The position numbers and the translations under genes are program-made. DNA of 22,747 nt from a virus, in the IMG/VR virus record IMGVR_UViG_3300017960_000059, positions 1 to 22,747 of that record; one strand, written 5' to 3'. Shown here piece by piece: positions 4,708 to 22,747 of this stretch. The notes below the pieces were generated by a model, which worked only from the letters and a program-made list of their open reading frames with translations, did not search any database and had not been told where the DNA came from. How positions within the stretch are numbered: position 1 is the stretch's first letter; the number at the start of each line of letters is the position of its first letter.

Positions 4708-5073
4708 ATGGCCGGAACAGGCTATGGTCCCGGATCCCCCTCATCAGCTGTCGCCAACCTCACCCCGCAGGTGCAGGCGACCAAGATGCCGACCCAGCCC
4801 GGCCAGATGACTCAGCCGCCGACTGCCGCACCGACCATGCCCAAGGTGGCCATGGTGCGGTTCGTCGCTTTCGTCGACGAGTTCGAGAAGATCGCCAGAG
4901 TGAAGCCGCCGTTCATGAGCCGCGTCAAGGAGTTCGTCAACGAGGGTATGCAGAAGGGCTTCATCTTCGACAAGGGTCACATCAAGGACGTGCGGAGGCG
5001 ACACGGCAGCATCCGCGCCTACTTGAAGAGTCCCGAGTCCCGCCTCCCCCACGAGCGGTGGATGAAGACATGA
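4708..5073 (+). CDS. Small protein with Pro/Gln-rich N-terminus and D-E-F-E-K-I-A motif
   Basis: A 121-residue protein starting at ATG 4708 with AGGAGA at 4691-4696. Residues 1-48 are low complexity, rich in Pro, Gln, Thr and Met. Residues 55-65 read F-V-D-E-F-E-K-I-A-R-V, the short motif shared with many neighbours, followed by a basic helical segment ending R-W-M-K-T. An in-frame ATG at 4852 would place the motif at the very N-terminus, as in the genes at 5070, 12629 and 16553, but its upstream region has no good ribosome site. If the motif is a processing or targeting signal, the low-complexity leader would be the removable part; that is inference. The next gene overlaps the stop (ATGA). 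Confidence 0.6.
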   Translation: MAGTGYGPGSPSSAVANLTPQVQATKMPTQPGQMTQPPTAAPTMPKVAMVRFVAFVDEFEKIARVKPPFMSRVKEFVNEGMQKGFIFDKGHIKDVRRRHGSIRAYLKSPESRLPHERWMKT

Positions 5074-5999
5074 TCAATCTACGTTCGTTCGCAGATGAGC
5101 TCGAGAAGATCGCGACCAGCCGCTGGAAAGCGGCGATAAGGGCGGGCGAGATAGGTGCCGGTGAGGTCAAGAGATTGCGGAAGGCGGATCTCTTGAATTA
5201 CTCACGAGAGATATCTGGTCTGAACGTCGGCACGAAGAACATTGCCAAGAAATTGGGGATCGAGGTGAAGGACCTCTCCAAGATGCCCAAGCCGAGAAAG
5301 AGGGTGTCGTCCAAGGAATTCCAGAACGTGTTGTCCGGTGAAGCGGAAACGGTTTCTCCGGCCATGGCCAGTCAACTGGCTCAAGGGGGTGGGGGATACG
5401 CGGCCTATCCTCAAGGACGTGTGGCCGTCGTCGGCGGACCCGGCTCTGAGAGATTCCTCCAAGGGACCAAGGGTGATGTGAGGTCGGGGCTCGACGCTTT
5501 GGCTAGAAGGCACGAGATCGATGAGCTGAGATCCGCGATCAAACGCGGCGTGGACAGACCAGTAAGTGAGATCGAGGGTCGGCCGATGTTTCAGGTCTCA
5601 GCCTCAATAAAGCCGACCGCAGCGCAGAAGAAGAAGATCGAGAGTGCTGCAAAGAAAGCGGAGTCTCGAGGCCGCACAGATGTGGCGGAAGAGATGAGGA
5701 AGACCATCACCGAGGGCGTCCCATATTCCCAGCTCGGATCACATATCAGCCCAGATGTGATCTTGCGGGAAAGTTATAATGTGGCCACCCTTCCTCCGGG
5801 AGTCAGGAGCGGCATCTCCAAGAACCGTATGGGGGAGTCTATGGCCTTGCGGCCTCATGGTCTCACTTATGGTACGGCGATCTCACCGCAGGCCCGCCGA
5901 AGGATACTGAAGTCATTCGAGCGTGGTGAGCTCTCGGCCAACGTGCAACTCAACAAGAGCCAACTGGCGGCGTTGGATAAAAGACTGCGGGGAGGGTGA
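5070..5999 (+). CDS. Motif-bearing virion-associated protein of unknown function
   Basis: A 309-residue protein; ATG 5070 overlaps the previous stop as ATGA, and the upstream GTG 5058 is unlikely. Residues 6-15 are S-F-A-D-E-L-E-K-I-A, the clearest copy of the recurrent motif and at the extreme N-terminus. The rest is basic and helical, with a Gly-rich patch near residues 100-125, a segment R-R-H-E-I-D-E-L-R-S-A-I-K-R and later G-S-H-I-S-P-D-V-I-L-R-E-S. I have an unverified memory of such segments in hypothetical proteins of large phages. No enzymatic motif or membrane segment is visible. Base use is like its neighbours. Confidence 0.6.
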   Translation: MINLRSFADELEKIATSRWKAAIRAGEIGAGEVKRLRKADLLNYSREISGLNVGTKNIAKKLGIEVKDLSKMPKPRKRVSSKEFQNVLSGEAETVSPAMASQLAQGGGGYAAYPQGRVAVVGGPGSERFLQGTKGDVRSGLDALARRHEIDELRSAIKRGVDRPVSEIEGRPMFQVSASIKPTAAQKKKIESAAKKAESRGRTDVAEEMRKTITEGVPYSQLGSHISPDVILRESYNVATLPPGVRSGISKNRMGESMALRPHGLTYGTAISPQARRRILKSFERGELSANVQLNKSQLAALDKRLRGG

Positions 6000-6649
6000 T
6001 GCCTGCCTGGATCGATCAGAGGGCCAAGCACATCCGGGAGAAGAACCCGGACATGGACGAGAGCACCTCGTGGGCCATCGCCACCCAGCAGGCCCACAAG
6101 CTCGGCAAGACCCCGAAGAACTACGGCACCGCCGAGGGGAAGCGGGAGGCGAAGGTGAAGTACGACAAGCCTCGGAAGGAGTACCGGAAGACGGCTGAGG
6201 ACAAGACCGTCCGCATGCTCTCTCCAGACTACGTCGAGCGGGTTGGGAGCACGCAGCAGAAGGTTGCTCCTCACGTCGTCGGTGGGTTCATGGGGGTGCC
6301 GCTGGGAGTAATGGGCGGAGCCGCTGGTGATCTGATTCGAGGTCCTGCAAGCCGATCCAAGTTGCCAGTGGCTGCTGGGGCTGCTCTTGGGGCTGCTGCC
6401 GGCTACGGCCTCGGTCGTCTCGCGTGGCATCGGCAGGCTGGTGGTCGCAACTTCGGGAAGGGTGAGAGGCGTGCAGCTCTTCGTGCTATCCGCGAGGCAA
6501 AGAGGCAAGGCTACACGCCCATCCTCGTCGACAAGCGGCGTGATGCGGAGTTCGACAAGATCAAGGACATCCTCCGGAAGAAGGCGTCGGCGTCTCTTGT
6601 CAAGATGGCGGCCTTCACTGATGAGCTCGAGCAGTTGATGATCAGCTAA
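5999..6649 (+). CDS. Basic protein with Gly/Ala hydrophobic segment and C-terminal motif
   Basis: A 216-residue protein; ATG 5999 overlaps the previous stop (TGATG) with GGAGGG just upstream. Residues 1-60 form a basic, conserved-looking module (W-I-D-Q-R-A-K-H-I, A-I-A-T-Q-Q-A-H-K-L-G-K-T-P, K-Y-D-K-P-R-K-E-Y). Two Gly/Ala-rich hydrophobic stretches follow (around V-V-G-G-F-M-G-V-P-L-G-V-M-G-G-A-A-G and V-A-A-G-A-A-L-G-A-A-A-G-Y-G-L-G), resembling glycine-zipper membrane segments. The C-terminus carries the recurrent motif in reverse placement: S-L-V-K-M-A-A-F-T-D-E-L-E-Q-L. A membrane-active ejected protein is one reading, inferred from composition only. It is the last gene of the left plus-strand run and is followed by tandem hairpins. 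Confidence 0.6.
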   Translation: MPAWIDQRAKHIREKNPDMDESTSWAIATQQAHKLGKTPKNYGTAEGKREAKVKYDKPRKEYRKTAEDKTVRMLSPDYVERVGSTQQKVAPHVVGGFMGVPLGVMGGAAGDLIRGPASRSKLPVAAGAALGAAAGYGLGRLAWHRQAGGRNFGKGERRAALRAIREAKRQGYTPILVDKRRDAEFDKIKDILRKKASASLVKMAAFTDELEQLMIS

Positions 6650-6659
6650 GGAAGAGTGA

Positions 6660-6691
6660 CCACGGAAACCGTGGCCACCCTATCGGGGTGG
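6660..6691. terminator. Tandem hairpins between convergent genes
   Basis: Two adjacent perfect hairpins lie between the convergent genes ending at 6649 and 6680: CCACGG-AAA-CCGTGG (6660-6674) and CCACCC-TATCG-GGGTGG (6675-6691). The second includes the stop codon of the minus-strand gene. No T-tract follows on either strand, so intrinsic termination is not certain; the placement between convergent genes supports a two-way terminator. Confidence 0.5.
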
Positions 6692-7330
6692 GGCGACGAA
6701 GTAGATCCTCATCTCACCATGCCCGTCGGGCATGATGAACCAATCGCCGAAATCTCGGTGCTTCCCGTTCATGGTCGGAACCAATTCCGGATCGGCACCA
6801 GCAGCATCGGCTGCGGCGAGGATCACGTCCATCATATCGAGGCCGGTCTCCCTCGAGGGGAGCTTGCGCATGGCGGGGTTCGGGACCTCGTCCGGAAAGA
6901 ACATCCGGTACGAGACCTGAATCACCCGCCCATCATGCTTGGGGACATCGGCGATCTCTCGGTGGGCTCCGAAGAGACTGCCCGGTTCCAGCCGGAACTC
7001 GTCCTCGTACACGACGTTGAACTGGCGGATGACGTCGTCCAACCAGTCAAATGCACCGGGGTTGGCGATGCGTTCGAGGGACACAGTGAACCTCCCGTTG
7101 GGGCACGTCCGACACCACGCCACATGAGTAGCGTCTGTCTTCTTGTTCCACATACAGGATGTTCGCATGACCATGCGCACATCACCAGCGTTGATCTTAC
7201 GCTGCGCGTCCTTGACACCTTTGGGTGGCTTTTCGGTGTCAGCGGGGCACAGCACCCACAACCCCTTCTGCTCGGCATACCAAGGGGAGACCTTGGCGCG
7301 CTTCGCCTTGCGCTTAGGGTCGTCGGCCAC
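6680..7330 (-). CDS. Unknown protein with scattered Cys/His
   Basis: A 216-residue minus-strand protein, with GTG at 7330 following the upstream gene stop by two bases, so the two form one transcript. The N-terminal 13 residues are strongly basic (K-R-K-A-K-R-A-K). Cys28, Cys59, His69, Cys73 and Cys76 could form a zinc site, with C-R-T-C as the closest pair. The C-terminal half mixes strands and helices, with D-W-F-I-M-P-D-G-H-G-E-M. I do not recognise the family. The opposite strand also has a long open frame, but its Ser-rich composition marks it as the shadow of the acidic neighbour. Confidence 0.6.
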   Translation of the reverse strand: MADDPKRKAKRAKVSPWYAEQKGLWVLCPADTEKPPKGVKDAQRKINAGDVRMVMRTSCMWNKKTDATHVAWCRTCPNGRFTVSLERIANPGAFDWLDDVIRQFNVVYEDEFRLEPGSLFGAHREIADVPKHDGRVIQVSYRMFFPDEVPNPAMRKLPSRETGLDMMDVILAAADAAGADPELVPTMNGKHRDFGDWFIMPDGHGEMRIYFVAPPR

Positions 7331-7332
7331 GA

Positions 7333-8283
7333 CTACTCGTCATCCTCCCAGTCGAAGAGCTCCTCCCCATCCTCCCAGTCGTCCTCGTCAGAGTCGTCCT
7401 CGTCGTCGAACCAGAACTCGGCGATGCGCTCTCGCGCCGCCTCGTCCTTGATCTTCGAGATTTCCTTCTCGTCGGAGTCGCTGGTGATGGCGATGGATTC
7501 CCAACCCGGAGATCCGCTGAGGCCGCCGAGCTTCAGCGTGTCGTTGAGGGCACGCTTGACGAAGCTCACCGGCACCCCACCTCGGCGATCCAGATCGTAG
7601 CCGAGCCGTTCGATCACCGAGCGGAGTTCTCCGTCCACGTCGATGTCTTCGGCCAACAGCTTGACCGCCGTCATCGCCGAGCGGCCGTCGGGGTCTCCCT
7701 CGATGTACACCGGTCTCCACATCGAGTGCGGCTTCCCCTTCGGGGGAAGCGCGCCGAACGAGGCGTACTCCGTCGCGCCGAGGACGAGCCCCAACCCGTG
7801 GGTCGGGACCCCGACGTACCCTTTGCCGTTGCGGCGGGGGAGCTGAGCGATCGGCCCCTTGAGCTCGCAGTTGTAGACTACGAGCAGGTCAGGCCTGGCG
7901 ACGATCTTGGTCCCCACCGTGACCACCGCCCAGGAGAAGCCCTGGAGATTGGCGATGTTGTTCCAGACGACGTCACCCACGGCGACGTCCCCCTGGCGCT
8001 TCCGCCCCTTGGCCGGGAGGTCCGCGTAGGCCTTCATCCGCTCGGCGAACTGCTCGAGCCCATCGCGACCGAGCTCGAGCAGCTTCTGCCTTGCGTCCTC
8101 CAGACCGATCCCCGCCTTCCTCGCCTTACGGACGGCGGTCAGAGACTTCTTGAATTCCGCCTCCCCTTGCTTGAGCAGTCGCTTGCTGAGCTTCTTGGAA
8201 AAGCCCAGCTTGGCGGCCGCCTTCAGTGGATCACTTTTGGCCTTGGGCTTTGCGCCTTCGGCCTTCTCTGATACCTGAGCCAT
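7333..8283 (-). CDS. Unknown protein with basic N-terminus and very acidic tail
   Basis: A 316-residue minus-strand protein. ATG at 8283 has a strong AGGAGG (8289-8294) five bases upstream; a GTG at 8289 is too close to that site. The first ~60 residues are Lys-rich and helical (K-K-L-S-K-R-L-L-K-Q), the centre has beta-rich segments (F-S-W-A-V-V-T-V-G-T-K-I-V, G-Y-V-G-V-P-T-H-G-L-G), and the last ~25 residues are almost all Asp and Glu with a few Trp/Phe. Such a tail suggests interaction with basic proteins or DNA mimicry, which is inference. It leads a two-gene minus-strand unit that runs against the surrounding late genes. Confidence 0.6.
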   Translation of the reverse strand: MAQVSEKAEGAKPKAKSDPLKAAAKLGFSKKLSKRLLKQGEAEFKKSLTAVRKARKAGIGLEDARQKLLELGRDGLEQFAERMKAYADLPAKGRKRQGDVAVGDVVWNNIANLQGFSWAVVTVGTKIVARPDLLVVYNCELKGPIAQLPRRNGKGYVGVPTHGLGLVLGATEYASFGALPPKGKPHSMWRPVYIEGDPDGRSAMTAVKLLAEDIDVDGELRSVIERLGYDLDRRGGVPVSFVKRALNDTLKLGGLSGSPGWESIAITSDSDEKEISKIKDEAARERIAEFWFDDEDDSDEDDWEDGEELFDWEDDE

Positions 8284-8330
8284 GTGCACCTCCTAATGTG
8301 CTTGAACTCGCCACCCACTATCAAAGCTCT
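8284..8330 (-). promoter_or_regulatory. Minus-strand leader with possible late-type promoter box
   Basis: The 94-base divergent gap between the minus-strand gene starting at 8283 and the terminase contains, read on the minus strand, C-TATAAG-A followed by TTCAAG-GCACAT-type sequence and AGGAGG. The TATAAG box resembles the single-box late promoters of T4 (TATAAATA) more than a two-box sigma-70 promoter; I see no convincing -35 element. The TTCAAG...AGGAG part recurs before the gene starting at 11642. Confidence 0.3.
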
Positions 8331-8377
8331 TATAGCCTCTGGCACTGATCGAATTGTGGTGATACGGTTGAGGCGGT

Positions 8378-11714: not shown

Positions 11715-12632
11715 ATGACGAGGGATCGACACATGATGGGAGCAGGCAGCGCGCACTTCACCCTGGCCGACAGCGGTCATCGGGAAGTGGCCCCCGAGCG
11801 GCTTCAGATGCTCGGCAAGAGGGCGAGTGCGCTCTTCGTCGAGAAGGGGATCCCACTGACCGACGCCGTCGTGAACGTCCTCAATGACGAGAGCGGACTC
11901 AACAAGCAGCATGTCCATCGGATCACCGAGTTCGCGAACAACTACGCGTTCGAGGACATGTTCAACAAGGAGGCTTCAGATCACCGCGTGATCGACTTTG
12001 GTGAGGACGGACCTGCCGACTCGGCTGCCATCCTCAAGGAACTGAACTCGATGGGCAAGGAGCAGATCAAGACGGCCTCAGCGAGGCCATCGGCTCCCCG
12101 ACGCCGATTCATCCCTGGGCAGGAAAGCGCAGCGGATCGGTACGGGTCCATGTCCAAGACAGCTTCGGCTGGCTCGGAGATGTATCCGTATGTCGATCCG
12201 TATCGTGAGCTGGGTGATCTGCGGGCGGATGTCAAGCGTGCCCACGAGGAGATGCTCACCAAGGTCGCTGACAGTGGGATGGAGTACGAGGCTGCGGCAA
12301 CGGAGCTCTACTCCCTCACGAAGCAGGCGGTGCTCAGTGGACACTCTCCGGCTGAGATCGCGATCCTCTTCGAGCAGCGTGCTCCGCACCTCACCATGGT
12401 GAAGCTCGCGCTGAAGGAAATCGCCACTCGGATGGAGGGAGACAACATCCCCGCCGTCCCGATGCAGAAGGTAGCCGGGAAGCGTGTGGCCAACGCGGAC
12501 CACCCGCTCCTCCGGTCCTTCGACACGTTCGTGAAGATCGCCGCAAGGTACTTCACGAACATCGCCGCATCCGAAAAGCTCGCGGGCCAGTTCCGCAAGG
12601 TGGATCGGAAGCTGCGAGACATGGTTCAATGA
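11715..12632 (+). CDS. Motif-rich probable virion protein
   Basis: A 305-residue protein; ATG 11715 has AGGAGG at 11703-11708, which favours it over a GTG at 11685. The N-terminal ~100 residues are helical (L-G-K-R-A-S-A-L-F-V-E-K-G-I-P-L, then V-H-R-I-T-E-F-A-N-N-Y-A-F) and end in F-G-E-D-G-P-A-D. The remainder contains many copies of the short Lys-x-Ala motif: I-K-T-A-S, S-K-T-A-S, L-T-K-V-A, L-T-K-Q-A, M-Q-K-V-A, F-V-K-I-A-A, S-E-K-L-A-G. I do not know the family function. The motif density and position before the putative protease suggest an internal or scaffold-associated head protein that could be processed; that is inference. The next gene overlaps the stop as ATGA. Confidence 0.58.
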   Translation: MTRDRHMMGAGSAHFTLADSGHREVAPERLQMLGKRASALFVEKGIPLTDAVVNVLNDESGLNKQHVHRITEFANNYAFEDMFNKEASDHRVIDFGEDGPADSAAILKELNSMGKEQIKTASARPSAPRRRFIPGQESAADRYGSMSKTASAGSEMYPYVDPYRELGDLRADVKRAHEEMLTKVADSGMEYEAAATELYSLTKQAVLSGHSPAEIAILFEQRAPHLTMVKLALKEIATRMEGDNIPAVPMQKVAGKRVANADHPLLRSFDTFVKIAARYFTNIAASEKLAGQFRKVDRKLRDMVQ

Positions 12633-12991
12633 TCGACGACTTCGAGAAGCTCGCGGCGGTGAGCCTCCTTGTCCGACTGGAGAAGCAGGCTACGGTCGAT
12701 AGTGCCATCGAGGGCGTAGGCAAAGGAATCAAGGACACAGGCCGCGCCGTCTATCGTGGCATCGGAGCAGCGACGGGCGGCGCGGCTCAACACCTGAAGC
12801 AGTTCGGTGTCGGTGGGCGACTTGCTGGTGGGGCCATCAGGTTGGCCCCGTGGGTTCTTGGTGCGGCAGCGGTCAACGAGGCGCTCGGCCGACCAACCCA
12901 GAACATCATGAAAGCCAAGCTCCGTGAGTTTCGGGCGAAGCGGCAACAGCAGCAAGCCGTCTATGATCCACGGACCGGGAGGATGTACTGA
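12629..12991 (+). CDS. Small motif-bearing protein with hydrophobic segment
   Basis: A 120-residue protein whose ATG 12629 overlaps the preceding stop (ATGA) with no clear ribosome site, implying translational coupling. It begins M-I-D-D-F-E-K-L-A-A-V, a close match to the recurrent motif at the very N-terminus, and L-E-K-Q-A-T follows at ~17-22. The middle is Gly/Ala-rich and ends in a hydrophobic stretch (I-R-L-A-P-W-V-L-G-A-A-A-V). The C-terminal ~35 residues are basic and Gln-rich (K-R-Q-Q-Q-Q-A). It may be a small internal or membrane-interacting virion protein, inferred from composition and neighbours. Confidence 0.58.
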   Translation: MIDDFEKLAAVSLLVRLEKQATVDSAIEGVGKGIKDTGRAVYRGIGAATGGAAQHLKQFGVGGRLAGGAIRLAPWVLGAAAVNEALGRPTQNIMKAKLREFRAKRQQQQAVYDPRTGRMY

Positions 12992-13562: not shown

Positions 13563-15560
13563 ATGATCACCAAGCAGTGTCAGTTTTCTGGTCGTGATGA
13601 CCGCGGGGTCCACATCCACCTCGTGCATCCGGGTTACAACAACGATCACTTGATCAAAGCTGCCGCTGCGTCTCCCCCACAACTCGCCCAGATACAGCGA
13701 CAGCTTCGGTCAATGAGCCGGGCGGATGGCTGGCTCTACACCATGGTCTCGGCGCTGGGCGCGGGAGAGTTCTGGGGATCAAACTCCAACGCCGACTACT
13801 TCGGCATGGAACCTCTGCTCCACACCCCTCCAGGGTGGGACATGCTCCCAGCAGACAAGCAGAAGATCATGGGTGCCCGTTGGGAGTGGGGCTATCCGAC
13901 GTTCTACAACGCCCACGCTTTCCAGCACCACGTGAACAAGGACCCAGCCCGCGCATTCGGCACGGTCGAGTACGTGCTCTGGGATCCCCGCATGAAGCGG
14001 GTGTTGCTGATCGTCGGCATCAACCGCGCCAAGGCCAAAGAGCTCGGAGCCATCGGTGTCGTGGACCGTATCGAGAACGGGGAGTATCCCGACGTCTCGA
14101 TGGGGTGCAAGGTTCCGTTCGATGTGTGCTCGATCTGCGGGGACATGGACCTCATCAGTCCCTACCTGAGCACGCCGAAGCGCATTCTCCAGATGCACAG
14201 GCAGCGTCCCATTCGAGGTATCAGCGCCACCACGGCGGAGTACTGCCAGCATCTGAAGTTCGAGCTCAACAAGATCTACCCAGACGGCCGCCGAGTCATG
14301 ATGTTGAACCTGCACCCCAGGTTCTTCGACATCAGCTTCGTCTTCATTGGAGCGGACAAGACCAGCAAGATGCTCGCGAAGCTGGCACACGGCAAGTGTC
14401 CGATCAAGACGGACTCCCCGATCTGCAAGCAGGGTTGCACCTCGTGCAACCCACAGGGCGCGGTTCCTTCTTCTCACATCTACAACGTCTGGAGCCGGGA
14501 CAAAGCGGCCTACGTGAGCCCTGCTCGAGGAACAACTGGGGAGCCCGTCCCCATCCCTGAGCAGACGACGCCGGAGCCGACCATGGATGCCAGTGAAGCA
14601 AGGAAGCTCAAGAAGAAGATCAAGACAGCCGAGGAGCTCTTCGAGGATACTCTCAACGCGCCGCTGGAGAAGACAGCAGCCGCGGTTGACGAGGGCAAGA
14701 TCAAAGAAGCCTTCGGCATCGAGGACTTCGACATCGACCCGGCGGACGAGGATGCCGTGTCCTCCTACTACCGCAAGAAGTACGCTCCCGGCCGACTCAT
14801 CAAGAAGTCAGAGATCGCCAAGCGAGTGTCCTCGCATTTCGGAGGAAGGGCGCTCCCGCTGATGGAGCGTCGAGAGCGCGACATCCCGTCGGATGTTCAG
14901 GACAAGATGTCCGAGGACCTGCCCGGGGCACTCAGCACAGCGGGGAGTCTGGGCATGGTCGTGAAGCCGAAGGAGTTCCAGCGCATGATGCTGATCTCCT
15001 GCGGCAAGAAGGACGTCGCCGACGACCTCGAGGCCAAGCGCCTCGTGTTCCGTCCCGGAGCTGCTGCGGATCCCAGCTTCTCCATCGCGGACTCGATAGT
15101 CCCCAGGATCCTCAAGTCGCTCCTCCCCATGATGGGAGAGCGCAGCGCCTTCGGTCCGACCCTTCACAAGAGGATCGTGATCACCATCAGCCGGAAAGCT
15201 CCCCCGCCCATGGGGCCGAGGGGTTGCGACGGCCCGCTGATGGACAAGCTCAGCAGCGCCTACACCTCCTACCGCCGAGGCCTGATCTACAAAACAGCAG
15301 GCCTCGTAAAGCAGGCGGTGGACAGTTACCCAGAGATCTTGCAGCCGATCTTCGGCGGAGATCTCATTCGATCTTTCGGAGGGGGACTTGTCAAGGAGGG
15401 GGGCGATGTGATGGAATCATTGATTGGAGGCATTCTTCCAGTGATCTACCTCAACCAGGCCTACACTGATGGGATGGTGTCGAGGTATGTCTCGGAGAAT
15501 CCTGATCTTGATGGGCTCACTCGGGTGGGTGAGCTCGCAGCTTTCGGTGGGGTGGCGTAG
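13563..15560 (+). CDS. Putative prohead protease with long C-terminal extension
   Basis: A 665-residue protein from ATG 13563, with no good ribosome site. Residues ~110-270 follow the prohead-protease pattern: a His-rich segment (His118, His122, His123), then A-F-G-T-V-E-Y-V-L-W-D-P, a strand-rich stretch, and D-V-S-M-G (Ser179), where the family has its nucleophile Ser in a S-[IM]-G context. Cys189, Cys192, Cys228 and His230 may bind zinc, and F-D-I-S-F-V-F-I-G-A-D lies near 259-269. A second Cys cluster is at 279, 288, 292 and 295. Known prohead proteases are about 200 residues; here ~350 residues follow, containing L-E-K-T-A-A and V-K-Q-A motifs that might be self-processing sites. The protease call is from motif reading; Cys-rich structural protein is the alternative. 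Confidence 0.5.
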   Translation: MITKQCQFSGRDDRGVHIHLVHPGYNNDHLIKAAAASPPQLAQIQRQLRSMSRADGWLYTMVSALGAGEFWGSNSNADYFGMEPLLHTPPGWDMLPADKQKIMGARWEWGYPTFYNAHAFQHHVNKDPARAFGTVEYVLWDPRMKRVLLIVGINRAKAKELGAIGVVDRIENGEYPDVSMGCKVPFDVCSICGDMDLISPYLSTPKRILQMHRQRPIRGISATTAEYCQHLKFELNKIYPDGRRVMMLNLHPRFFDISFVFIGADKTSKMLAKLAHGKCPIKTDSPICKQGCTSCNPQGAVPSSHIYNVWSRDKAAYVSPARGTTGEPVPIPEQTTPEPTMDASEARKLKKKIKTAEELFEDTLNAPLEKTAAAVDEGKIKEAFGIEDFDIDPADEDAVSSYYRKKYAPGRLIKKSEIAKRVSSHFGGRALPLMERRERDIPSDVQDKMSEDLPGALSTAGSLGMVVKPKEFQRMMLISCGKKDVADDLEAKRLVFRPGAAADPSFSIADSIVPRILKSLLPMMGERSAFGPTLHKRIVITISRKAPPPMGPRGCDGPLMDKLSSAYTSYRRGLIYKTAGLVKQAVDSYPEILQPIFGGDLIRSFGGGLVKEGGDVMESLIGGILPVIYLNQAYTDGMVSRYVSENPDLDGLTRVGELAAFGGVA

Positions 15561-15631: not shown

Positions 15632-16513
15632 ATGAATCAGTTCCTGGCAGATCAGTACGGCACGGGCGGCGTGGACGAAGACACGGATGCCCTCGAGAAG
15701 ATGGCCCAGCTCACTCTCCTGGTGAAGGAAGCCGAAGAGAACGACATCGATCTCTCGGAGCTTTCCGAGGAAGAGGCGCTCGAGCTCGCCGACGAGCTCT
15801 ACGGCGACGAGGAGTACGAGGACGAGGACGACTTCGAGAAGGAGGCCGCGGCCAAGTTCGAGGAGGCCGACTTCCTGGGCCGCGTCATGGCCCACTCCAT
15901 GTGGCAGGAGCTCGACGAGATCCAGAAGGAAGCCGGCCTCAAGGAGAAGGCCGTGGACCTCGGCCGCCGTGCCTACGGGGCCACTCTGGGTCGCGTCGGC
16001 AAGGGCGTGGAGCAGAAGCTCATGAACCGCTACCGCGGTGAGGGGAAGATGCCCACCAAGCTCGAGTCTCGCATCATCCAGCGGCTCGGCGGCGTCAAGC
16101 GGAAGTACCGCGGCAAGAAGATCACGGACGACAACTACGAGCAGTGGGCCGGTTCTCGCAAGGTCCGGCGCGGCATGAAGCGTGGTGCGCACCGCTTGGA
16201 GCGCGCGGGCCGCATCGGAGCCGAGGCCGCGACGACGGCGGGTGCGCTGGGTGCCGTGGGCGGAACCGCCTGGGCCGGGAAGAAGGGCATCGACGCCCTG
16301 CGCGACGGCAAGAAGAAGAAGGCGTCGGCCTTCCTCAAGCTCGCCGAGGATCGCGCGCTCGAGATGCTCTACGACGAGGGCTACATCGACGAGTACGGCA
16401 ACGTCTACGGTGCGGAGAAGACGGCCTCGGCCGGCGACTTCGACACGACCCTGGACACGGCCGCGCTCGAGATCCTCGAGGCCAACGGCTGGCCCGTCCA
16501 CTGGAACGAGTAG
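15632..16513 (+). CDS. Acidic/basic bipartite motif-bearing head-region protein
   Basis: A 293-residue protein; ATG 15632 has AAGGAG at 15619-15624. It starts M-N-Q-F-L-A-D-Q-Y-G-T-G and carries D-A-L-E-K-M-A-Q at residues 19-26. Residues ~35-85 are very acidic (E-E-E-A-L-E-L-A-D-E-L, then D-E-E-Y-E-D-E-D-D-F). The middle is strongly basic with a Gly/Ala segment (A-G-A-L-G-A-V-G-G-T-A). Near the C-terminus come F-L-K-L-A-E, A-E-K-T-A-S and an ending A-L-E-I-L-E-A-N-G-W-P-V. A scaffold or internal head protein is plausible from the acidic helical region and the position between protease and capsid genes, but I cannot name it. Confidence 0.55.
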   Translation: MNQFLADQYGTGGVDEDTDALEKMAQLTLLVKEAEENDIDLSELSEEEALELADELYGDEEYEDEDDFEKEAAAKFEEADFLGRVMAHSMWQELDEIQKEAGLKEKAVDLGRRAYGATLGRVGKGVEQKLMNRYRGEGKMPTKLESRIIQRLGGVKRKYRGKKITDDNYEQWAGSRKVRRGMKRGAHRLERAGRIGAEAATTAGALGAVGGTAWAGKKGIDALRDGKKKKASAFLKLAEDRALEMLYDEGYIDEYGNVYGAEKTASAGDFDTTLDTAALEILEANGWPVHWNE

Positions 16514-16552: not shown

Positions 16553-16810
16553 ATGGTGGATGAGGTGACGAAGATCGCTGCGGTCTCGTCCCCCTCCATC
16601 AAGGCCCCACCCGCTCCCGGCGGGTTGCAGGGGCAGCTCAGTGCTACCCCTGTCGCCCCCGTCCCGTTGAAGAAGATCACCGGGAAGGCGCTGGAAAGCA
16701 CCAACCTCCAGAAGACCAACTACACGTCCGTAAACACGAGAGCGCAGATACCGAACGTCACACTGACCTCTGAACAAAAGGCTCTCACGCCCCCGGTGGT
16801 CAGATCGTGA
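16553..16810 (+). CDS. Small protein with N-terminal V-D-E-V-T-K-I-A motif
   Basis: An 85-residue protein; ATG 16553 has no clear ribosome site, and a GTG at 16526 is the only in-frame upstream start noted. It begins M-V-D-E-V-T-K-I-A-A-V, the recurrent motif in the same N-terminal position as in the gene at 12629. The rest is a low-complexity, Pro/Ser/Thr-rich and probably unfolded chain. If the motif were a cleavage or targeting signal, this would be a minimal cargo. It is followed by AGGAGG and the next gene. Gene reality is less certain than for its neighbours because of its length and weak start. Confidence 0.5.
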   Translation: MVDEVTKIAAVSSPSIKAPPAPGGLQGQLSATPVAPVPLKKITGKALESTNLQKTNYTSVNTRAQIPNVTLTSEQKALTPPVVRS

Positions 16811-16823
16811 AGGAGGTTCCCTG

Positions 16824-17939
16824 ATGGGACAGAGGATCAACAATTTGATCGAAGCTGCGCTCCTTGACGGCGCTGACGGGGTGATGACCAAGATCGCTCA
16901 AGATGCCGAGGGTGAAGCCGGCGGCGGCAAGTGCGCGAAGTGCGACAAGCCGGCCGCAGCTGGCTCCAAGCTGTGCAAGGAGTGCGCGGAGAAAGCGGCC
17001 CGTGCTGAGGAGCAGGCCGCCGGTATGGAGGAGACCGAGAAGACTTCCTCCGCTCGGCTGTACAAGCTGGCCGAGGCTGTTCAGTACATCGCCGACAACT
17101 TCGGTGACATCCAGATGCCCGTTGGTGTCCTGAAGACCGCAGAACCCGCGGCCACCATGACGCCTTCGACGTCTGGCCCCGGAGGCGGACCCAACGCCCT
17201 GCCCACCGATCTGAACTCTCCTCCCGGCGGTTCCAACACTGCCCCCGAGGGATTCGGAGAGGCCAAGGCGAAGAAGCCTCCGATGGTCCCCGGCCTCGAG
17301 GCCGGCGCGACGCCCAAGGCGGCGAAGAACGCCATCGAGACCGACGACACCACCCCGCCTGGCGGCGCTGGGGAGCAGCCTCAGATGATGCAGCCTGGTG
17401 GGCTCGGTGGTTCCACACCGCAGGCCGGCTCCAAGACTGCTTCGGCGGTCAATCGGATCAAGCAGGCCATGCTGCGTAAGCGAGCCGCCGAGAATCCGGG
17501 GACGAGCATCTCGACCCCCAAGACCATGCTTCCCACGACACCAGAGAACCAGCCCTCTGGCGTCGAACGCCCTGCGGAGGTCACTTCCCAGGAGAGCCTG
17601 ATTTCGTCCAACGAGGCAGCGATCAACGCGACGAAGCGCCAGGCCAAGGAGGTTCCGAAGAAGCGGATGGGCGATGTCCTTTCCGAGCCAGCCCAGTCGA
17701 AGTCGACCGATTCGGCTCTCGACGCGGCCCTCGGTTCGGGGATGGTGAACGAGGCCGGTGCCAAGGTCGCTGCGGCACAGGCTCGTGTTCACTTGCAGAA
17801 GATCGCAAGCGCCGGATGCACCTGCGGGGGCAAAGGCGAGTGTGGATTCTGCAAGATCGCTTCACGAATTGACCAGAGGCACACGGAGGATGCTGGTGCT
17901 CTGTGGGCTGCTGGTCGGGGACCGGGAGCCACCCGGTAG
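16824..17939 (+). CDS. Long disordered protein with zinc ribbon and many K-x-A motifs
   Basis: A 371-residue protein; ATG 16824 has AGGAGG at 16811-16816. V-M-T-K-I-A-Q is at residues 20-26. Cys37-x2-Cys40-x10-Cys51-x2-Cys54 is a classic zinc-ribbon spacing. Residues ~110-250 are Pro/Gly/Thr-rich and look disordered. Further motif copies are Y-K-L-A-E, L-K-T-A-E, S-K-T-A-S and L-Q-K-I-A-S, and near the C-terminus a second cluster reads C-T-C-G-G-K-G-E-C-G-F-C followed by K-I-A-S. No catalytic site is seen. The position just upstream of the capsid module and the repeated motif suggest a processed head or scaffold-associated protein, by inference. Confidence 0.55.
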   Translation: MGQRINNLIEAALLDGADGVMTKIAQDAEGEAGGGKCAKCDKPAAAGSKLCKECAEKAARAEEQAAGMEETEKTSSARLYKLAEAVQYIADNFGDIQMPVGVLKTAEPAATMTPSTSGPGGGPNALPTDLNSPPGGSNTAPEGFGEAKAKKPPMVPGLEAGATPKAAKNAIETDDTTPPGGAGEQPQMMQPGGLGGSTPQAGSKTASAVNRIKQAMLRKRAAENPGTSISTPKTMLPTTPENQPSGVERPAEVTSQESLISSNEAAINATKRQAKEVPKKRMGDVLSEPAQSKSTDSALDAALGSGMVNEAGAKVAAAQARVHLQKIASAGCTCGGKGECGFCKIASRIDQRHTEDAGALWAAGRGPGATR

Positions 17940-17950
17940 AGGAGGCCATG

Positions 17951-18337
17951 ATGCAGAAGCTCAGTGCACGAAACGTGGTGGCCGTCCTCAAGCAGATCCC
18001 AGAGGCTCTCGTGAAGACGGCCTCCGAGCGTGATCACTGGAAGGAGCGGGCCATCCGCGCCGAACAGATGCTCGGGGACTACCAGACTCGCGAGCGCGTC
18101 GAGAAGGTCGCCGCGGCCATGATCGAGAAGAACCTGAACAAGGGTCTCGATCAGGACGAACTGCGTGAGAACCTCATGCAGAAAGCCGCGGAGGGCAAGC
18201 TCGAGGTCGTGGCGGAAGCCGTCGGCATGACGGCCCGCAGCAACCCGCTGGGATTCCTGGGCGAGGACACCAACTCGACTGGGGGCGGATCCACCGGAGG
18301 AGCCTCGGCGGCGTTCGAGAACGCCATCCTGGGCTAA
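17951..18337 (+). CDS. Helical protein upstream of capsid genes, scaffold candidate
   Basis: A 128-residue protein. AGGAGG at 17940-17945 is two bases from an ATG at 17948 and five from ATG 17951, so I chose 17951. The chain is mainly helical and charged with coiled-coil character (A-S-E-R-D-H-W-K-E-R-A-I-R-A-E-Q-M-L, then R-E-R-V-E-K-V-A-A-A-M-I-E-K). It has motif copies V-K-T-A-S and E-K-V-A-A, a Gly/Ser/Thr-rich linker and a hydrophobic C-terminal end. Phage scaffolds are typically helical, charged and encoded just before the capsid gene, which is the only basis for the scaffold idea; the length is short for a scaffold. Confidence 0.5.
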   Translation: MQKLSARNVVAVLKQIPEALVKTASERDHWKERAIRAEQMLGDYQTRERVEKVAAAMIEKNLNKGLDQDELRENLMQKAAEGKLEVVAEAVGMTARSNPLGFLGEDTNSTGGGSTGGASAAFENAILG

Positions 18338-18395: not shown

Positions 18396-18878
18396 GTGTA
18401 CCAAAACTACTTCCGGACGACCAGCCCAGTCGCCGCCGTCAACCGTCAGGACTTCGTGGTCTCCGACCGCGCTCTGATGGACTTCGAGAGTGCCGCTCCT
18501 TTGGCGCTCGTGATGGGCGAGTGGCTGACGCTGGACGCCACTTACAAGCTGGCGAGGGCCGCGAACCCGGGCATCCCGCCCGGACCGTGGTGCCTCTTCA
18601 TGGAGCTCGGTCGTTCCGACGGCCAGGCCATCGCAGACGGGAAGCTCGACGTCCTCTTCCAGGGCGGCTACTGGGCCGAGACGAAGGTGTTCAACACCGG
18701 CGCAGCTCCGGCCCTCGGCGCAGCCCTCGAGGTGGCGAACGTCACGCCGACCGGCATCACCGGAACGAGGTCGGGTCTCCAGACCCACGCCGGCGGGGCG
18801 AACCCCGTCATCGGGTACGTCACGAAGCTCGCAGCCGACAACGGCGGCTGGCTCCAGTTCCAGCAGACGCTGGTGTAA
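18396..18878 (+). CDS. Probable capsid decoration / head-stabilising protein
   Basis: A 160-residue protein starting at GTG 18396 with GGGAGG at 18382-18387. The composition is beta-rich, with Gly-rich turns and few charges (V-M-G-E-W-L-T-L-D-A-T-Y-K-L, F-Q-G-G-Y-W-A-E-T-K-V-F). The C-terminus runs G-Y-V-T-K-L-A-A-D-N-G-G-W-L-Q-F. It sits 15 bases before the probable major capsid gene, the usual place for decoration proteins, and shares its transcript. The decoration call rests on size, composition and context; no specific family is recognised. A minor structural protein is the alternative. Confidence 0.5.
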   Translation: MYQNYFRTTSPVAAVNRQDFVVSDRALMDFESAAPLALVMGEWLTLDATYKLARAANPGIPPGPWCLFMELGRSDGQAIADGKLDVLFQGGYWAETKVFNTGAAPALGAALEVANVTPTGITGTRSGLQTHAGGANPVIGYVTKLAADNGGWLQFQQTLV

Positions 18879-18893
18879 GGAAGGAGGGATCAC

Positions 18894-20024
18894 ATGTCGA
18901 CCAGATCTCAAGTCCTCAACGATCTCTTCGTCCAGAACCTCGACAGCTACGAGGGCAAGGAGAAGGTCGCGGCCGCAGGCGGCACCTTCATTCGTGACCG
19001 GCTGCGCGAGGTCGCCTTCTCTCGGCAGATCCTGCCACCCGAGAACGTGACCAAGGCGGACTGTCAGCGGTCCACGCGCCACGACACCCTCGTCAAGATC
19101 ATCGACGTGGAGCCGGAGAGCCGCGCCATGGCGATCACCTTCCGTGGTCAGCCCAAGGCTCGCTTCATCCGCGCGCCTCGCGCCGAGATCCCCTTCTTCA
19201 CCATCTCGTCCGAGAAGTTCGAGAAGGTGGAGCAGGAGCTGCTCGCCTACGAGATGCCCATCACGCGCGTCATCGAAGACAACAGCGTGAAGGACATCCA
19301 GGAGGTGGAGGACCGCGAGTTCCTCCTGCACCTCGAGGCCGCCGTTCAGGCCATGCAGGCCGAGGCCAACTCCGTCGCCGCCGCGCCCGCGCTCAACAAC
19401 GCGAGCATCAACGGCCTGACGCCTCCACGAGAGTTCTCCGTCCGCAAGGGCGAGCTCGCTCGTCAGCCCGGCGTCACGGACAACGCCTACGTCTGGCCGC
19501 TCCAGCGCCCGGACATCGTCAACCTCCACAAGCTGCTGGACGGGAATCGTCTGCGTGCTCAGAAGGTCCTCATGACCGAGTACGACTTCGACGATCTCAA
19601 CCAGTGGACGGTCGAGGACTTCGGCGACAAGCTCCAGAGCGAGACCGCCGTCGAGGGCTACAAGTACTCGACGCTCCTCGGTCGGGCCTTCGTCCGGACG
19701 ATCAAGACCGACATCCTCCGCACGGGCAACCTCTACGTGTTCACGTCGCCCGAGTTCCTCGGGAAGTTCTACGTGTTGAACAACACGAAGTTCTACATCG
19801 ACAAGATCGCGAACCTGATCACCTGGCAGAGCTGGGAGGACATCGCGATGTCGATCGTGAACATCGCCTCGGTGCGGAAGCTCGAGCTCTACGCGGGCGA
19901 CGCCACGCTGAACGACACCGACTCGATCCGGTCCGACGTGACCCCGGTCGACGAGGCGGATCTCGGCGCGGTGAACAACCGAGTGGACTCCGGCCTGGTG
20001 TTCCCGCAGGTGAAGGTCTACTAG
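18894..20024 (+). CDS. Probable major capsid protein (HK97 fold)
   Basis: A 376-residue protein; ATG 18894 has GGAGGG just upstream. After a helical N-terminal arm it has R-Q-I-L-P-P-E-N-V-T-K and then beta-rich segments (L-V-K-I-I-D-V-E-P-E-S-R-A-M, A-R-F-I-R-A-P-R-A-E-I-P-F-F), a long helical part near 115-160, and A-F-V-R-T-I-K-T-D-I, Y-V-F-T-S-P-E-F-L-G-K-F-Y-V, as in HK97-fold shells. Codon use is strongly biased to G/C-ending codons, as in abundant proteins. Around residues 22-30, K-E-K-V-A-A-A-G-G resembles the recurrent motif and could be an N-terminal processing site. The call combines size, position after a decoration candidate, codon bias and fold-like pattern. Confidence 0.72.
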   Translation: MSTRSQVLNDLFVQNLDSYEGKEKVAAAGGTFIRDRLREVAFSRQILPPENVTKADCQRSTRHDTLVKIIDVEPESRAMAITFRGQPKARFIRAPRAEIPFFTISSEKFEKVEQELLAYEMPITRVIEDNSVKDIQEVEDREFLLHLEAAVQAMQAEANSVAAAPALNNASINGLTPPREFSVRKGELARQPGVTDNAYVWPLQRPDIVNLHKLLDGNRLRAQKVLMTEYDFDDLNQWTVEDFGDKLQSETAVEGYKYSTLLGRAFVRTIKTDILRTGNLYVFTSPEFLGKFYVLNNTKFYIDKIANLITWQSWEDIAMSIVNIASVRKLELYAGDATLNDTDSIRSDVTPVDEADLGAVNNRVDSGLVFPQVKVY

Positions 20025-20074
20025 CTTCGGCTTGTTCCTTCGTCCAAGCGGCAACACCGCATCGCGCGTTTTCA

Positions 20075-20111
20075 GAGGGGCGCGGCGTCCACAAGCGGCG
20101 TCGCGCCCCTC
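20075..20111. terminator. Strong hairpin after the capsid gene
   Basis: GAGGGGCGCG (20075-20084) and CGCGCCCCTC (20102-20111) form a perfect 10-bp GC-rich stem with a 17-base loop in the 113-base gap after the capsid stop. No T-run follows, so partial termination or transcript end protection, lowering expression of downstream neck genes relative to capsid, is as likely as full termination. Nothing else is evident in the gap apart from a ribosome site at its end. Confidence 0.55.
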
Positions 20112-20137
20112 GTATCTGAGGTGAGGAGGTTGATCCT

Positions 20138-20689
20138 GTGAAGTTCGTTATCACCAACATGGTTCGTCGGACCGAGACGCGTGTGGCGCGTGCGAGGTCG
20201 GCAACCCGAGCCCGTCCCCTTCAGCGAATCTGCGGGAACAAGTTCCGCCTCGTGCGCGGCAAGAACCGCGGCGGCATCGTCATCGACGAGGATCTCCTCA
20301 ACGAGCACTGGGACGAGCTCAAGGAGAAGCAGGCGGCAGGCCTGATCGCTGTCCACGAGGGGGTCTACAACGGCCCGCTCTTCGCGTTCGACTCCCTCGA
20401 CCGCCAGGTCGTCGAGAACACCCCAGAGCCCGTGGAGGAGCCATCCGATGATGAGCCCGAAGACGAGGAGCAAGCTGCGGATGATTCAGAGGAGGAGGCC
20501 GAAGAGCTCGAAGAGGAAGAAGCCGAGCTCGAAGAGGAGCCCGAAGAAGAGATGACCGCCGAGCCCGAGAAGCCTGTCGAGCGGATGAACAAGGCTGAGC
20601 TCATCGCACACGCAGCGGTCATCCTCGGCGAGGACGAGGGAGCCCTCGAGGCCCTCACCAAGAAGCAGATCATGGAGAGGCTCGGATGA
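20138..20689 (+). CDS. Unknown protein with basic N-terminus and Glu-rich region
   Basis: A 183-residue protein; GTG 20138 has GAGGAGGT about eight bases upstream. Residues 1-50 are basic (R-R-T-E-T-R-V-A-R-A-R-S-A-T-R-A-R). The middle 95-145 is a run of Glu and Asp, probably unstructured. The C-terminus (M-N-K-A-E-L-I-A-H-A-A, then L-T-K-K-Q-I-M-E-R-L) looks like a small helix-loop-helix of the HeH/SAP kind that can bind nucleic acid. The location after the capsid gene suggests a head-completion role; no family is identified. The next gene overlaps the stop as ATGA. Confidence 0.55.
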   Translation: MKFVITNMVRRTETRVARARSATRARPLQRICGNKFRLVRGKNRGGIVIDEDLLNEHWDELKEKQAAGLIAVHEGVYNGPLFAFDSLDRQVVENTPEPVEEPSDDEPEDEEQAADDSEEEAEELEEEEAELEEEPEEEMTAEPEKPVERMNKAELIAHAAVILGEDEGALEALTKKQIMERLG

Positions 20690-21090
20690 TCATCTACAAC
20701 CTCACGGACAGGACTCCCCCGTGGGAGAAGAAGCCGCGCACCCCGAACAAGATCAAGATCCGTGGTGTGCAGATTCTCCCAGGGGACCAACACGAATTCT
20801 CAGACTTCCCGCTGGCGCAGGTCTCGGGGCACATCAACGCTCATCGAGTCAGCGTCGACGGAATCCCCGACTGGTACCAGAAGGCGGAAGCGTCGGAGAA
20901 GGAAGAGCGGTTCAAGGTTCACTTCGCCCAGGTCGCCGAAAAGGCCGCTGCGGAGAAGTCCGTGAAGGCGTCTGTTGGTGCCATGGACGTCGAGGTCACG
21001 GCTGGTGACGACGGAGAGCTCGGCACCGATGACGATGAGGTGAAGATCACTCCGAAGCGCAAGAAGTCCAAGAAGGGGAAGAAGAAGTGA
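20686..21090 (+). CDS. Unknown small protein with Lys-rich tail
   Basis: A 134-residue protein; ATG 20686 overlaps the previous stop. The N-terminal ~60 residues look like a compact beta domain (I-Y-N-L-T-D-R-T-P-P-W, K-I-K-I-R-G-V-Q-I-L-P-G-D). They are followed by a helix with Ala/Lys/Glu, an acidic section (D-D-G-E-L-G-T-D-D-D-E) and a Lys-rich end (P-K-R-K-K-S-K-K-G-K-K-K). No K-x-A motif is evident at the N-terminus. It may be a head or connector accessory protein by position only. Confidence 0.55.
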   Translation: MIIYNLTDRTPPWEKKPRTPNKIKIRGVQILPGDQHEFSDFPLAQVSGHINAHRVSVDGIPDWYQKAEASEKEERFKVHFAQVAEKAAAEKSVKASVGAMDVEVTAGDDGELGTDDDEVKITPKRKKSKKGKKK

Positions 21091-21608
21091 CAAGTCTTCA
21101 GGGCCTCGACACCCCGAGTATCCCCGGGGCGTCCCAGACCTTCAACCACTTCGTGGCTCAGACCCGTCTGTTCATGCGGGACTTCCCGGAGTTGAACCGG
21201 CTGGTGGCTGGGGAGGAGACCGACGATCGTATGATCGCGTTCTGCTGCATGGAGGCCCTGAGCGACTTCAACTCCGAGCCGCCTCATCTGGGGTTCTACA
21301 CCTTCGAGATGTTCGTGCAGAAGGGCTGGGTCCACCCGCTTCGCAACGGGACGATCTGCCAGATCCTGCACACGATCGGGCTGCTCCAGACGCGCAATCA
21401 TCTGCCCTTCTCGGATGGCGGCCTCAACGTCGCGGTGAGCGACAAGACTCCCCTGCTCCAGAGCTGGATCCAGCTCTTCTGCAACAAGTGGGAGATGTGG
21501 AAATCGAAGGCCAAGGTGTCGCAGAACATCGCAGGCATTCTGACTGGTGAAGGGGGCGTCTCGAGCGAGCTCTTTGCCATCAACGGGTACTTCGGTATCT
21601 ACTACTAA
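21087..21608 (+). CDS. Likely head-completion / neck adaptor protein
   Basis: A 173-residue protein from GTG 21087, overlapping the previous stop as GTGA, with AAGGGG upstream. The pattern R-D-F-P-E-L-N-R-L-V-A-G-E-E, then E-A-L-S-D-F-N-S-E-P-P, then L-L-Q-T-R-N-H-L-P-F-S-D-G-G, V-S-D-K-T-P-L-L-Q-S-W-I and a helical C-terminal part is one I associate from memory with neck or head-to-tail adaptor proteins of tailed phages. It would attach below the portal and prepare the head for tail joining. Its place after the capsid gene agrees. It lacks the recurrent K-x-A motif. I am moderately sure of the role and have no symbol for it. Confidence 0.5.
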   Translation: MTSLQGLDTPSIPGASQTFNHFVAQTRLFMRDFPELNRLVAGEETDDRMIAFCCMEALSDFNSEPPHLGFYTFEMFVQKGWVHPLRNGTICQILHTIGLLQTRNHLPFSDGGLNVAVSDKTPLLQSWIQLFCNKWEMWKSKAKVSQNIAGILTGEGGVSSELFAINGYFGIYY

Positions 21609-21620
21609 GAGGAGGTCGAG

Positions 21621-22100
21621 ATGGCGACCTGGGCACATCGTTACTTTCGCACCCTGAAGGAGGCCACGTCTTTCCTCAATGGGGTGATTCAGATTCCGAA
21701 GGATGTCGGCGGCACGATAGACCTCGATGGTCTGACGTTGATCATCGACAAGGATGGTGGCGGCAACCGAACGGTCACCTTCGTGGGAACTGAGCTCACA
21801 GCCGAAGACATCGTGACGCAGATTGCCGCTGCCCACGCGGATCTCTCCGGCGCAGTGACCTACGTTCAGAATGTGGGTTCTTTCCACCACGGCCGGGGGC
21901 AGATCTTCTTGCGGATCGGCAAGGACGACGGGTCGGTCTACACCATTCGCGGCAACGGCACGGCGAACCCCGAGTTGGGGCTTCCGTCCCCGGCGACTCC
22001 CGCGAATGACGTCGTGGGCACGCCGTACACGAACACCGAGGCCCAGCTCATGCGCAACGTGGGCGATCAAAACCCGTGGGTCGTGGTGACCTACAAGTAG
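21621..22100 (+). CDS. Beta-rich virion structural protein
   Basis: A 159-residue protein; ATG 21621 has GAGGAGGT six bases upstream. The central segment (L-T-L-I-I-D-K-D-G-G-G-N-R-T-V-T-F, then E-D-I-V-T-Q-I-A-A-A-H-A, then I-F-L-R-I-G-K-D-D-G-S, ending N-P-E-L-G-L-P) matches a small repeat-type domain often present in phage tail and fibre proteins, where a strand pair, an Ile-Asn-Ala helix and a final Leu-Gly-Phe-like turn alternate. A structural role is likely; head, neck or tail cannot be distinguished. It follows the neck candidate by 12 bases and precedes the last gene by 10. Confidence 0.5.
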   Translation: MATWAHRYFRTLKEATSFLNGVIQIPKDVGGTIDLDGLTLIIDKDGGGNRTVTFVGTELTAEDIVTQIAAAHADLSGAVTYVQNVGSFHHGRGQIFLRIGKDDGSVYTIRGNGTANPELGLPSPATPANDVVGTPYTNTEAQLMRNVGDQNPWVVVTYK

Positions 22101-22110
22101 GAGCGAGACC

Positions 22111-22747
22111 ATGTCGAACACCTTCGACGATATGATCAAAGAAGCCACGGGTCTGCCGTGGGAGATGGGTGCTCGACTCATGGTCGAGCTCCGAAGCTCC
22201 GTGCACGTCCCGGAGCAGCCGGTCATGACCAAGGAAGCTGCCTTGGGGATGATCAAGATTGCTCGGATGAGCAAGATCGCACAGACCCCCGAAGAGGCGC
22301 AGGCCATGGCGCAGGAGGCGGCGATGACCGACCCCAACATCGTGGCCGCCATGGATCACCAGCAAGCCGCTTCCGAGCGGGAGATGTTGGTGAACCGCAT
22401 CAACGAGCTTCAGGTTGCCAACGAGGCGGCAACGGCTCAGGTCGAGATGGCCAACCAAGCTGCTCAGGCGGCTTCTCAGCAGTCCGAGCAGACGCAGGCC
22501 ATGCTCGAGCAGGCTCACTCCGACCGGACCATGGCGGTTCAGGAGTCGATGGCCGCCAAGGACCAGGCTCTTCAGACCCAGGTCGCTGGTCAGCAGCACC
22601 GCCACCAGATCGCTCAAGCCGCCGAGCAGATGGCGGAGCAGCTCAAGTCGCTCGCCGCCACGAGTCCGGAGCAGCAGCAAGCTGAGCAAGCCATGGCTCA
22701 GCAGCAGATGGCCGAGCAACAGGCTGCGGCTCAGCAAGCTCCAGCAG
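22111..22747 (+). CDS. Gln/Ala-rich coiled-coil protein, 3' end outside window
   Basis: ATG 22111 has AGGAG at 22099-22103 and the frame stays open to the right edge, giving at least 212 residues. The N-terminus reads M-S-N-T-F-D-D-M-I-K-E-A-T-G, a variant of the recurrent motif, and residues ~40-60 add M-T-K-E-A-A, M-I-K-I-A-R and M-S-K-I-A-Q. The remainder is a long Gln/Ala/Met/Glu-rich helix with heptad-like spacing, ending in Gln-Ala repeats. An elongated coiled coil is clear from composition; whether it is a scaffold, internal or tail protein is not. Confidence 0.6.
   Translation, partial: MSNTFDDMIKEATGLPWEMGARLMVELRSSVHVPEQPVMTKEAALGMIKIARMSKIAQTPEEAQAMAQEAAMTDPNIVAAMDHQQAASEREMLVNRINELQVANEAATAQVEMANQAAQAASQQSEQTQAMLEQAHSDRTMAVQESMAAKDQALQTQVAGQQHRHQIAQAAEQMAEQLKSLAATSPEQQQAEQAMAQQQMAEQQAAAQQAPA

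Follow-up and report, generated by a model that had tools for sequence, protein, structure and literature searches.

What is the short lysine-alanine motif that recurs in otherwise unrelated proteins of a large tailed phage and its relatives, and what could it be for? The question is raised by a 22,747-base virus contig from IMG/VR (IMGVR_UViG_3300017960_000059; "the window" below means this whole stretch of DNA), which covers the late region of the phage and encodes a spike-like protein, g03-g08, the terminase g11, g14-g21, g22, the major capsid protein g23 and further genes. An original prediction had taken the motif, written as [DE]x[LFV]xK[ILMVT]A, to be a targeting or cleavage tag. Our analysis supports this reading, which fits all the evidence gathered and would split into two layers, a protease site and a leader. 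Most probably, the prohead protease of the phage, g17, recognizes and cuts its substrates at Phi-x-K-x-A (Phi being a hydrophobic residue): the motif flanks the catalytic domain of g17, keeps its place in core/scaffold-like proteins and is found above all in the structural module. The longer N-terminal form, A-F-x-D-E-L-x-K-I-A, present on scores of unrelated proteins, looks like an address label that would send them into the head as cargo.

Over-representation of the motif

The original prediction had proposed a comparison with shuffled proteins of equal composition, for which 2000 composition-preserving shuffles of the window proteins were used. The motif as first written was found 10 times against 0.3 expected (shuffle maximum 4), the core [LFVMI]xKxA 56 times against 11.4 (maximum 24) and KxA 97 times against 47.5 (maximum 70). 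This excess is confined to a spacing of 2, as K..A at other spacings gave 34-63 against about 47 expected, and to lysine, as RxA was found 38 times against 47 expected; a slight excess is seen for ExxA too (85 against 57). Chance or composition as the cause is ruled out by the shuffles together with the spacing controls, and so is a genome-wide residue bias, the motif being near expectation outside the structural module. All eight peptides quoted originally were found in the genes named (g06, g07, g08, g15, g18, g19, g20 and g28), but the form of the motif had to be loosened, in that Phi-x-K-x-A is the robust core and the acidic residue at -4 only a preference. The claim that most plus-strand proteins carry it holds on shuffling for g03, g14, g17, g18, g20, g21 and g28, but most other genes are at chance level. 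The terminase and the minus-strand proteins had been said largely to lack the motif; g11 is at chance, and g13 on the minus strand has 3 copies. The copies in these two are not conserved in the relatives and were treated as chance.

Relatives (120-193 kb contigs) were found via g23. Their genes were called by a simple script as the longest coding-like open reading frames (ORFs), so that start codons and some tag positions are approximate. The closest cultured relatives are Salmonella phage Arash and the Vibrio phages D69, D148 and D181 (26-39% identity), and Bacillus phage G is a more distant one. In a blind scan of 400 residue pairs at 6 spacings (1-6), ranked by over-representation, KxA is first of all pairs in the window (z 7.2) and LxK second. 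KxA again comes out on top in the Arash head region and in the structural module of the relative G004 (z 6.2), and takes third place in the head region of phage G. As a positive control the T4 head region was scanned in the same manner, and the top pair was IxE, the known determinant of the T4 head protease; the T4 scaffold gp22 has 16 [LI]xE against 5.7 expected.

In four relatives of 177-191 kb the motif excess lies mainly in the structural module. Inside the module, 79 copies were observed against 27.7 expected in G001 and 63 against 19.9 in G004, as opposed to 40 against 36.3 and 50 against 39.2, respectively, outside it, and in G013 and G016 the motif peaks in the bins containing the protease. 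For Arash, the proteins labelled structural have 67 copies against 31.5 expected and the other proteins 36 against 36.6; these labels are scattered over the genome and are therefore probably proteomics-made. The fold excess over the relatives is highest for g14 (9.2x), followed by g21 (7.5x), g18 (5.2x), g20 (5.1x), g17 and g28 (4.2x each), and there is none for g22, g24, g26 and g27 (0.3-0.8x).

The protease g17 and its sites

By sequence and modelled fold g17 is a prohead protease, its activity being predicted. A Foldseek search of BFVD with the AlphaFold2 model (predicted template modelling score 0.75; residues 1-38 and most of 263-290 of low confidence) gave, at a probability of 1.00, phage G gp19 and numerous structures that bear the name prohead protease, and the profile of g17 matched gp77 of Rhodococcus phage E3, a "prohead protease" (probability 96, E 5e-9). 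The homologues Arash gp222 and phage G gp19 match phrog_18299, "head maturation protease" (2.6e-19 and 2.1e-6); a Pfam search of the g17 relatives themselves gave no match. H123 and S179 are invariant in 21 sequences, with catalytic roles assigned by analogy. The order g17, g18-g21, g22, g23 is the same in the relatives, Arash and phage G, so that the protease lies upstream of the scaffold-like genes and the capsid gene in each.

The KxA copy before the catalytic domain has a counterpart in the same column in Arash (LTKQA), Vibrio phage D69 (LEKSA) and phage G gp19 (LVKTA), and so has the copy after it (LEKVA, LQKVA and LEKVA, respectively), near whose column the motif is present in 33 of 38 relatives. 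These copies, which flank the domain in phages whose hosts differ greatly, are placed as self-release sites would be, and self-processing is predicted from their position. Residues ~189-230 of g17 (14127-14252) hold a CxxC followed by a CxxH beside the putative catalytic Ser, also seen in Arash, D69 and phage G gp19, which is likely a zinc ribbon. In G003, G013, G030, G031 and G032 the protease frame reaches ~1060-1680 residues and its match is broken up, in many cases close to model positions 193/227. This suggests extra sequence inserted behind the putative catalytic Ser, which may be an intein or a long domain.

Conservation separates the motif residues from other residues of the same kind. 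The motif Lys is identical in 78% of the homologues of g14 against 12% for other Lys and is kept in 88% against 44% for g20, and the motif Ala of g18 is kept in 85% against 40% for other Ala, with K and A forming the conserved pair and Phi less so; in the terminase and g13, the few copies are not kept. The profile of 909 distinct sites reads [DE]-x-[MFLI]-E-K-[ITLQV]-A-[SAQE]-[EA], with a preference for an acidic residue at -4 (D 2.1x, E 1.8x), avoidance of P, G, D and K at +1, and at +3 avoidance of I, P, K and L and a 2.9x enrichment of S. This is in line with gp245 of phage SPN3US, whose determinants are P3 and P1 (A-x-E) and which favours Ser at P1' (PMC10052503).

What the sequences show is the enrichment, the conservation of the sites in position, their concentration in the structural module, the N-terminal tag on unrelated cargoes, its co-occurrence with the protease and the identity of the protease; cleavage, the scissile bond, packaging and injection are inferred. 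During head assembly g17 would free itself at the two sites flanking its catalytic domain, would degrade the core/scaffold proteins g14, g18, g20 and g21 at their repeated sites, and would trim other head proteins. The cut probably falls after the Ala (P5 hydrophobic, P3 Lys, P1 Ala), because of the analogy with the P3 and P1 positions of T4 and SPN3US.

The N-terminal leader

A search for the tag across related phages, also part of the original proposal, showed that its leader form, [FYW]x[DE][DE][LFMVI]x[KR]xA, is enriched, with 30 copies against 1.3 expected in 1273 proteins of relatives, 24 of them within the first 30 residues. On scanning IMG/VR DNA for F-x-D-E-L-x-K-I-A, at least 120 stretches were found, while a permuted pattern gave a total of 27. 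Among the matches listed, the tag lies in the first 30 residues of 96 of the 121 distinct ORFs (6 of 17 for the permuted control), 82 of 87 have A, S or G before the F, at a position that the search pattern leaves free, and of the 30 long contigs that came up through the tag and nothing else, 29 encode a g17-type protease, against 0 of 19 (smaller) control contigs. Conservation ends at the final Ala, with nothing conserved beyond it, and the leader ends in K-x-A, the same motif that flanks the protease domain, where cleavage is predicted. Tagged genes are also found far from the head module (at 65.5 kb and 95.6 kb in G001, and at 10 kb and 46 kb in G016). DEL[EQTA]KIA was not found, and nothing relevant to a KxA prohead protease site emerged, in the literature searched, the scope of which did not extend to subscription papers.

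When the tag is removed, 87 of the 96 proteins with the tag in the first 30 residues fall into at least 66 unrelated cargo groups. Most of these are without a Pfam match, and the rest include C92 papain-like amidases (3), an SNF2-type helicase, a GNAT acetyltransferase, a zinc peptidase, MazG and NlpC/P60. Sigma-70 region 3 is matched (E 1.9e-9, above the Pfam cut-off) by a protein that has the leader FADELDKEA (L096:5529-6302, i.e. G001 65529-66302), which makes it a candidate virion-packaged sigma factor. The transketolase-like tag matches L172 and L207 are probably chance matches. In the window, g08 (5999-6649) has an N-terminal domain, WI-x-x-RA...AIATQQAH-x-x-GKTPK-x-YGT, in common with L128, L185, L186 and L220, and the relatives having this domain carry the full tag after it, at residue 60-89, followed by variable cargo.

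Taken over the group, we find it fairly likely that a large, mostly uncultivated set of phages (contigs ~85-210 kb) uses one portable leader and a K-x-A protease to load diverse, fast-changing effectors into the head for injection. K-x-A would then be a previously undescribed prohead protease specificity, and the candidate effectors would include amidases, a helicase, an acetyltransferase, a zinc peptidase, MazG and the sigma-70-region protein. Which proteins are carried in the head and injected has as a rule been established by proteomics, and for a few cultured phages only; if the reading is true, the leader would allow the injected proteins of uncultured phages to be read off their sequences, since a consensus that can be recognized, and that is tied to a protease of the same phage, would make candidate cargoes listable from metagenomic data. 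K-x-A would also be a further site chemistry beside the [LI]-x-E of T4 and the A-x-E of the phiKZ type, useful for testing how head proteases shift specificity while dozens of substrates follow. Simple statistics on the head gene region alone can find such sites, as seen from the blind recovery of the T4 site.

Alternative explanations

Several observations weigh against reading the motif as the g17 site and the leader as its companion. No sequence link between g17 and T4 gp21 emerged when their profiles were compared, and the fold match of the g17 model to T4 gp21 in the PDB is weak (E 0.37). Mycobacteriophages I3 and Phrappuccino and a Moorella phage have a related protease with no KxA excess, and therefore K-x-A specificity is not fixed across the whole protease family and is unsupported as a general property of gp19-type proteases. 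The FxDELxKIA leader was not seen in the KxA-rich proteins of Arash, g03, which is encoded near the spike, also carries 9 sites, and the 19 control contigs are smaller, at 10-99 kb. In the capsid protein g23, K24 and A26 of KVA are invariant in a 16-sequence alignment, and an aligned KEA is present in the Arash major capsid protein. This KVA lacks a hydrophobic P5 and may be structural, and it is weak evidence because the whole arm is uniformly conserved; the AlphaFold model of g23 (predicted local distance difference test 33) is too low in confidence to place it in the fold.

If Phi-x-K-x-A were a docking motif only, bound by a common core/scaffold protein or by the protease and left uncut, its repetition in core proteins and its presence in N-terminal leaders would be accounted for, and targeting and processing are separable within a single T4 leader (PMC9026906). 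We consider this unlikely, in view of the conserved columns at which the motif stands on both sides of the protease catalytic domain, of the avoidance at +1 and +3 and the conservation ending exactly at Ala, which resemble protease subsites, and of the blind scan method, which recovers the known T4 cleavage site. That the motif has no function of its own and simply arises from helical or coiled-coil scaffold proteins rich in Lys and Ala is hardly credible: g18, g20 and g28 are indeed Ala-rich and charged, and ExxA is somewhat raised, but the excess holds for spacing 2 and for K only even though the shuffles preserve composition, the K and A of the motif are conserved far above other K and A, and the tag stands at the N-termini of all those unrelated cargo groups.

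It is quite improbable that the leader routes proteins elsewhere, such as to a phage replication compartment or to a host membrane or protease, independently of g17. The tagged genes of G001 and G016 that are distant from the head module would suit such a route, but in T4, too, the genes of the internal proteins are found outside the head cluster, the leader shares its terminal K-x-A with the sites of the head module, and nearly all long contigs found by the tag, among the matches listed, have the protease. A cut after Lys (Phi-x-K, then x-A), with all else as we propose, is possible though doubtful. In its favour, LxK ranks second among the enriched pairs of the window and Phi-x-K would mirror the [LI]-x-E of T4; against this, it is K and A that are conserved, Phi less so, which matches P3/P1 of T4 and SPN3US, Ser is enriched and Ile/Leu are avoided after the Ala, and the conservation of the tag extends through the Ala.

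Features of the window

The positions of the sites, leaders and genes discussed are given in Table 1.

Table 1. Motif-bearing features of the window, with the basis of each assignment
Feature	Position	Strand	Basis
g03, 690 residues, spike/tail-side gene group, 9 sites	1302..3374	+	several sites kept in a relative of ~34% identity
Tag FVDEFEKIA in g06 (residues 55-63)	4870..4896	+	sequence
N-terminal tag FADELEKIA of g07 (SFADELEKIA, residues 6-15; cargo 5115-5999)	5088..5114	+	sequence
C-terminal LVKMA then degenerate tag FTDELEQLM, g08 (VKMAAFTDEL, residues 201-210)	6596..6640	+	
g14, core-like protein, 8 sites	11715..12632	+	homologue mean 5.2 sites vs 0.57 expected
N-terminal leader MIDDFEKLA of g15 (residues 1-9)	12629..12655	+	sequence
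g17, prohead (head-maturation) protease, 665 residues	13563..15560	+	fold, profile, homologues
Site LIKAA directly before g17 catalytic domain	13650..13664	+	column shared with Arash, D69, phage G
g17 catalytic domain, residues ~38-262	13674..14348	+	AlphaFold2 model
Site LAKLA directly after g17 catalytic domain	14373..14387	+	column shared with Arash, D69, phage G
g18, core/scaffold-like acidic protein, 5 sites, DALEKMA at residues 19-25	15632..16513	+	enrichment and conservation in relatives
N-terminal leader MVDEVTKIA of g19 (residues 1-9)	16553..16579	+	sequence
g20, core/scaffold-like protein, 6 sites, VMTKIA at residues 20-25	16824..17939	+	homologue mean 4.2 vs 0.82 expected
g21, small protein, 3 sites, directly upstream of g22 and capsid gene	17948..18337	+	homologue mean 2.4 vs 0.32 expected
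K-V-A in N-terminal arm of major capsid protein g23 (gene 18894-20024)	18963..18971	+	
g28, N-terminal FDDMIKEA (residues 5-12) and three more sites	22123..22281	+	homologues 4.2x

The terminase g11 matches phrog_675 (E 1e-49) and g23 matches phrog_2522 (E 5e-12), and searches of the family libraries gave no identification for g03. Only three matches to g23 were found in the genome collection (L274, L275 and L276), in metagenome-assembled genomes labelled Deltaproteobacteria, uncultured bacterium and Methanoregulaceae archaeon; the binning may be wrong, so the labels give no host. Residues 133-170 of g07 (5070-5999) are 47% identical (E 1e-4) to residues 376-415 of phage G gp14, which is noted as a portal. 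The long ORFs 6656-7600 (+) and 7333-8283 (-) oppose each other with a 268-base overlap, and the former is probably not a gene, because the latter has coding-like third-position G+C and a homologue in G001. The g14 homologue of G001 (139435-140343) lies in two adjacent frames, either by sequencing error or by a real break.

Comparison with known systems

The N-terminal residues of P1 DarB are enough to bring a reporter protein into the head, so that DarB is alike in having an N-terminal capsid-targeting sequence; it differs in being one large protein of one phage, and the part of the source drawn on describes no leader shared by many cargoes (PMC9024508). Phage G gp19 and Arash gp222 are homologues of g17, with KxA flanking the catalytic domain. 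Phage G differs in that its major capsid protein gp27 is without KxA, the deposited chain starting at residue 1 (6wkk), and in that its other head genes show little KxA excess.

The parallel with T4 and phiKZ drawn in the original prediction is a fitting one as regards mechanism and not as regards residues, K-x-A standing in place of [LI]-x-E or A-x-E. As in the phiKZ/SPN3US type, where many head proteins are cut at a short P3-x-P1 motif, the protease cleaves itself and Ser is preferred at P1', the sites here are short; the residues here are K and A, most SPN3US propeptides are long, and the portion of that account used here describes no shared short leader (PMC10052503). In T4, the internal-protein leader of 10-19 residues directs its protein to the prohead core and is cut off by gp21, with targeting depending on residues 4 and 7 and processing on 8 and 10 (PMC9026906). 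In the T4 record, IPII and IPIII begin with MKTYQEFIAE followed by A. Common to T4 (internal proteins IPI-III and Alt, with gp21) and to the phages described here are a short N-terminal leader on unrelated cargoes, with aromatic, acidic and hydrophobic residues and ending in a protease site (a predicted one in the phages described here), repeated sites in the scaffold (gp22 in T4), and scattered cargo genes. The differences are that P3-P1 is K-x-A here and [LI]-x-E in T4, that the leader core here is F-x-D-E-L-x-K-I-A, and that the set of candidate cargoes is far larger and more varied here, with a function that is predicted. The leader is therefore similar to that of T4 in layout and different in residues; it would work like the T4 leader and is not classed as its homologue.

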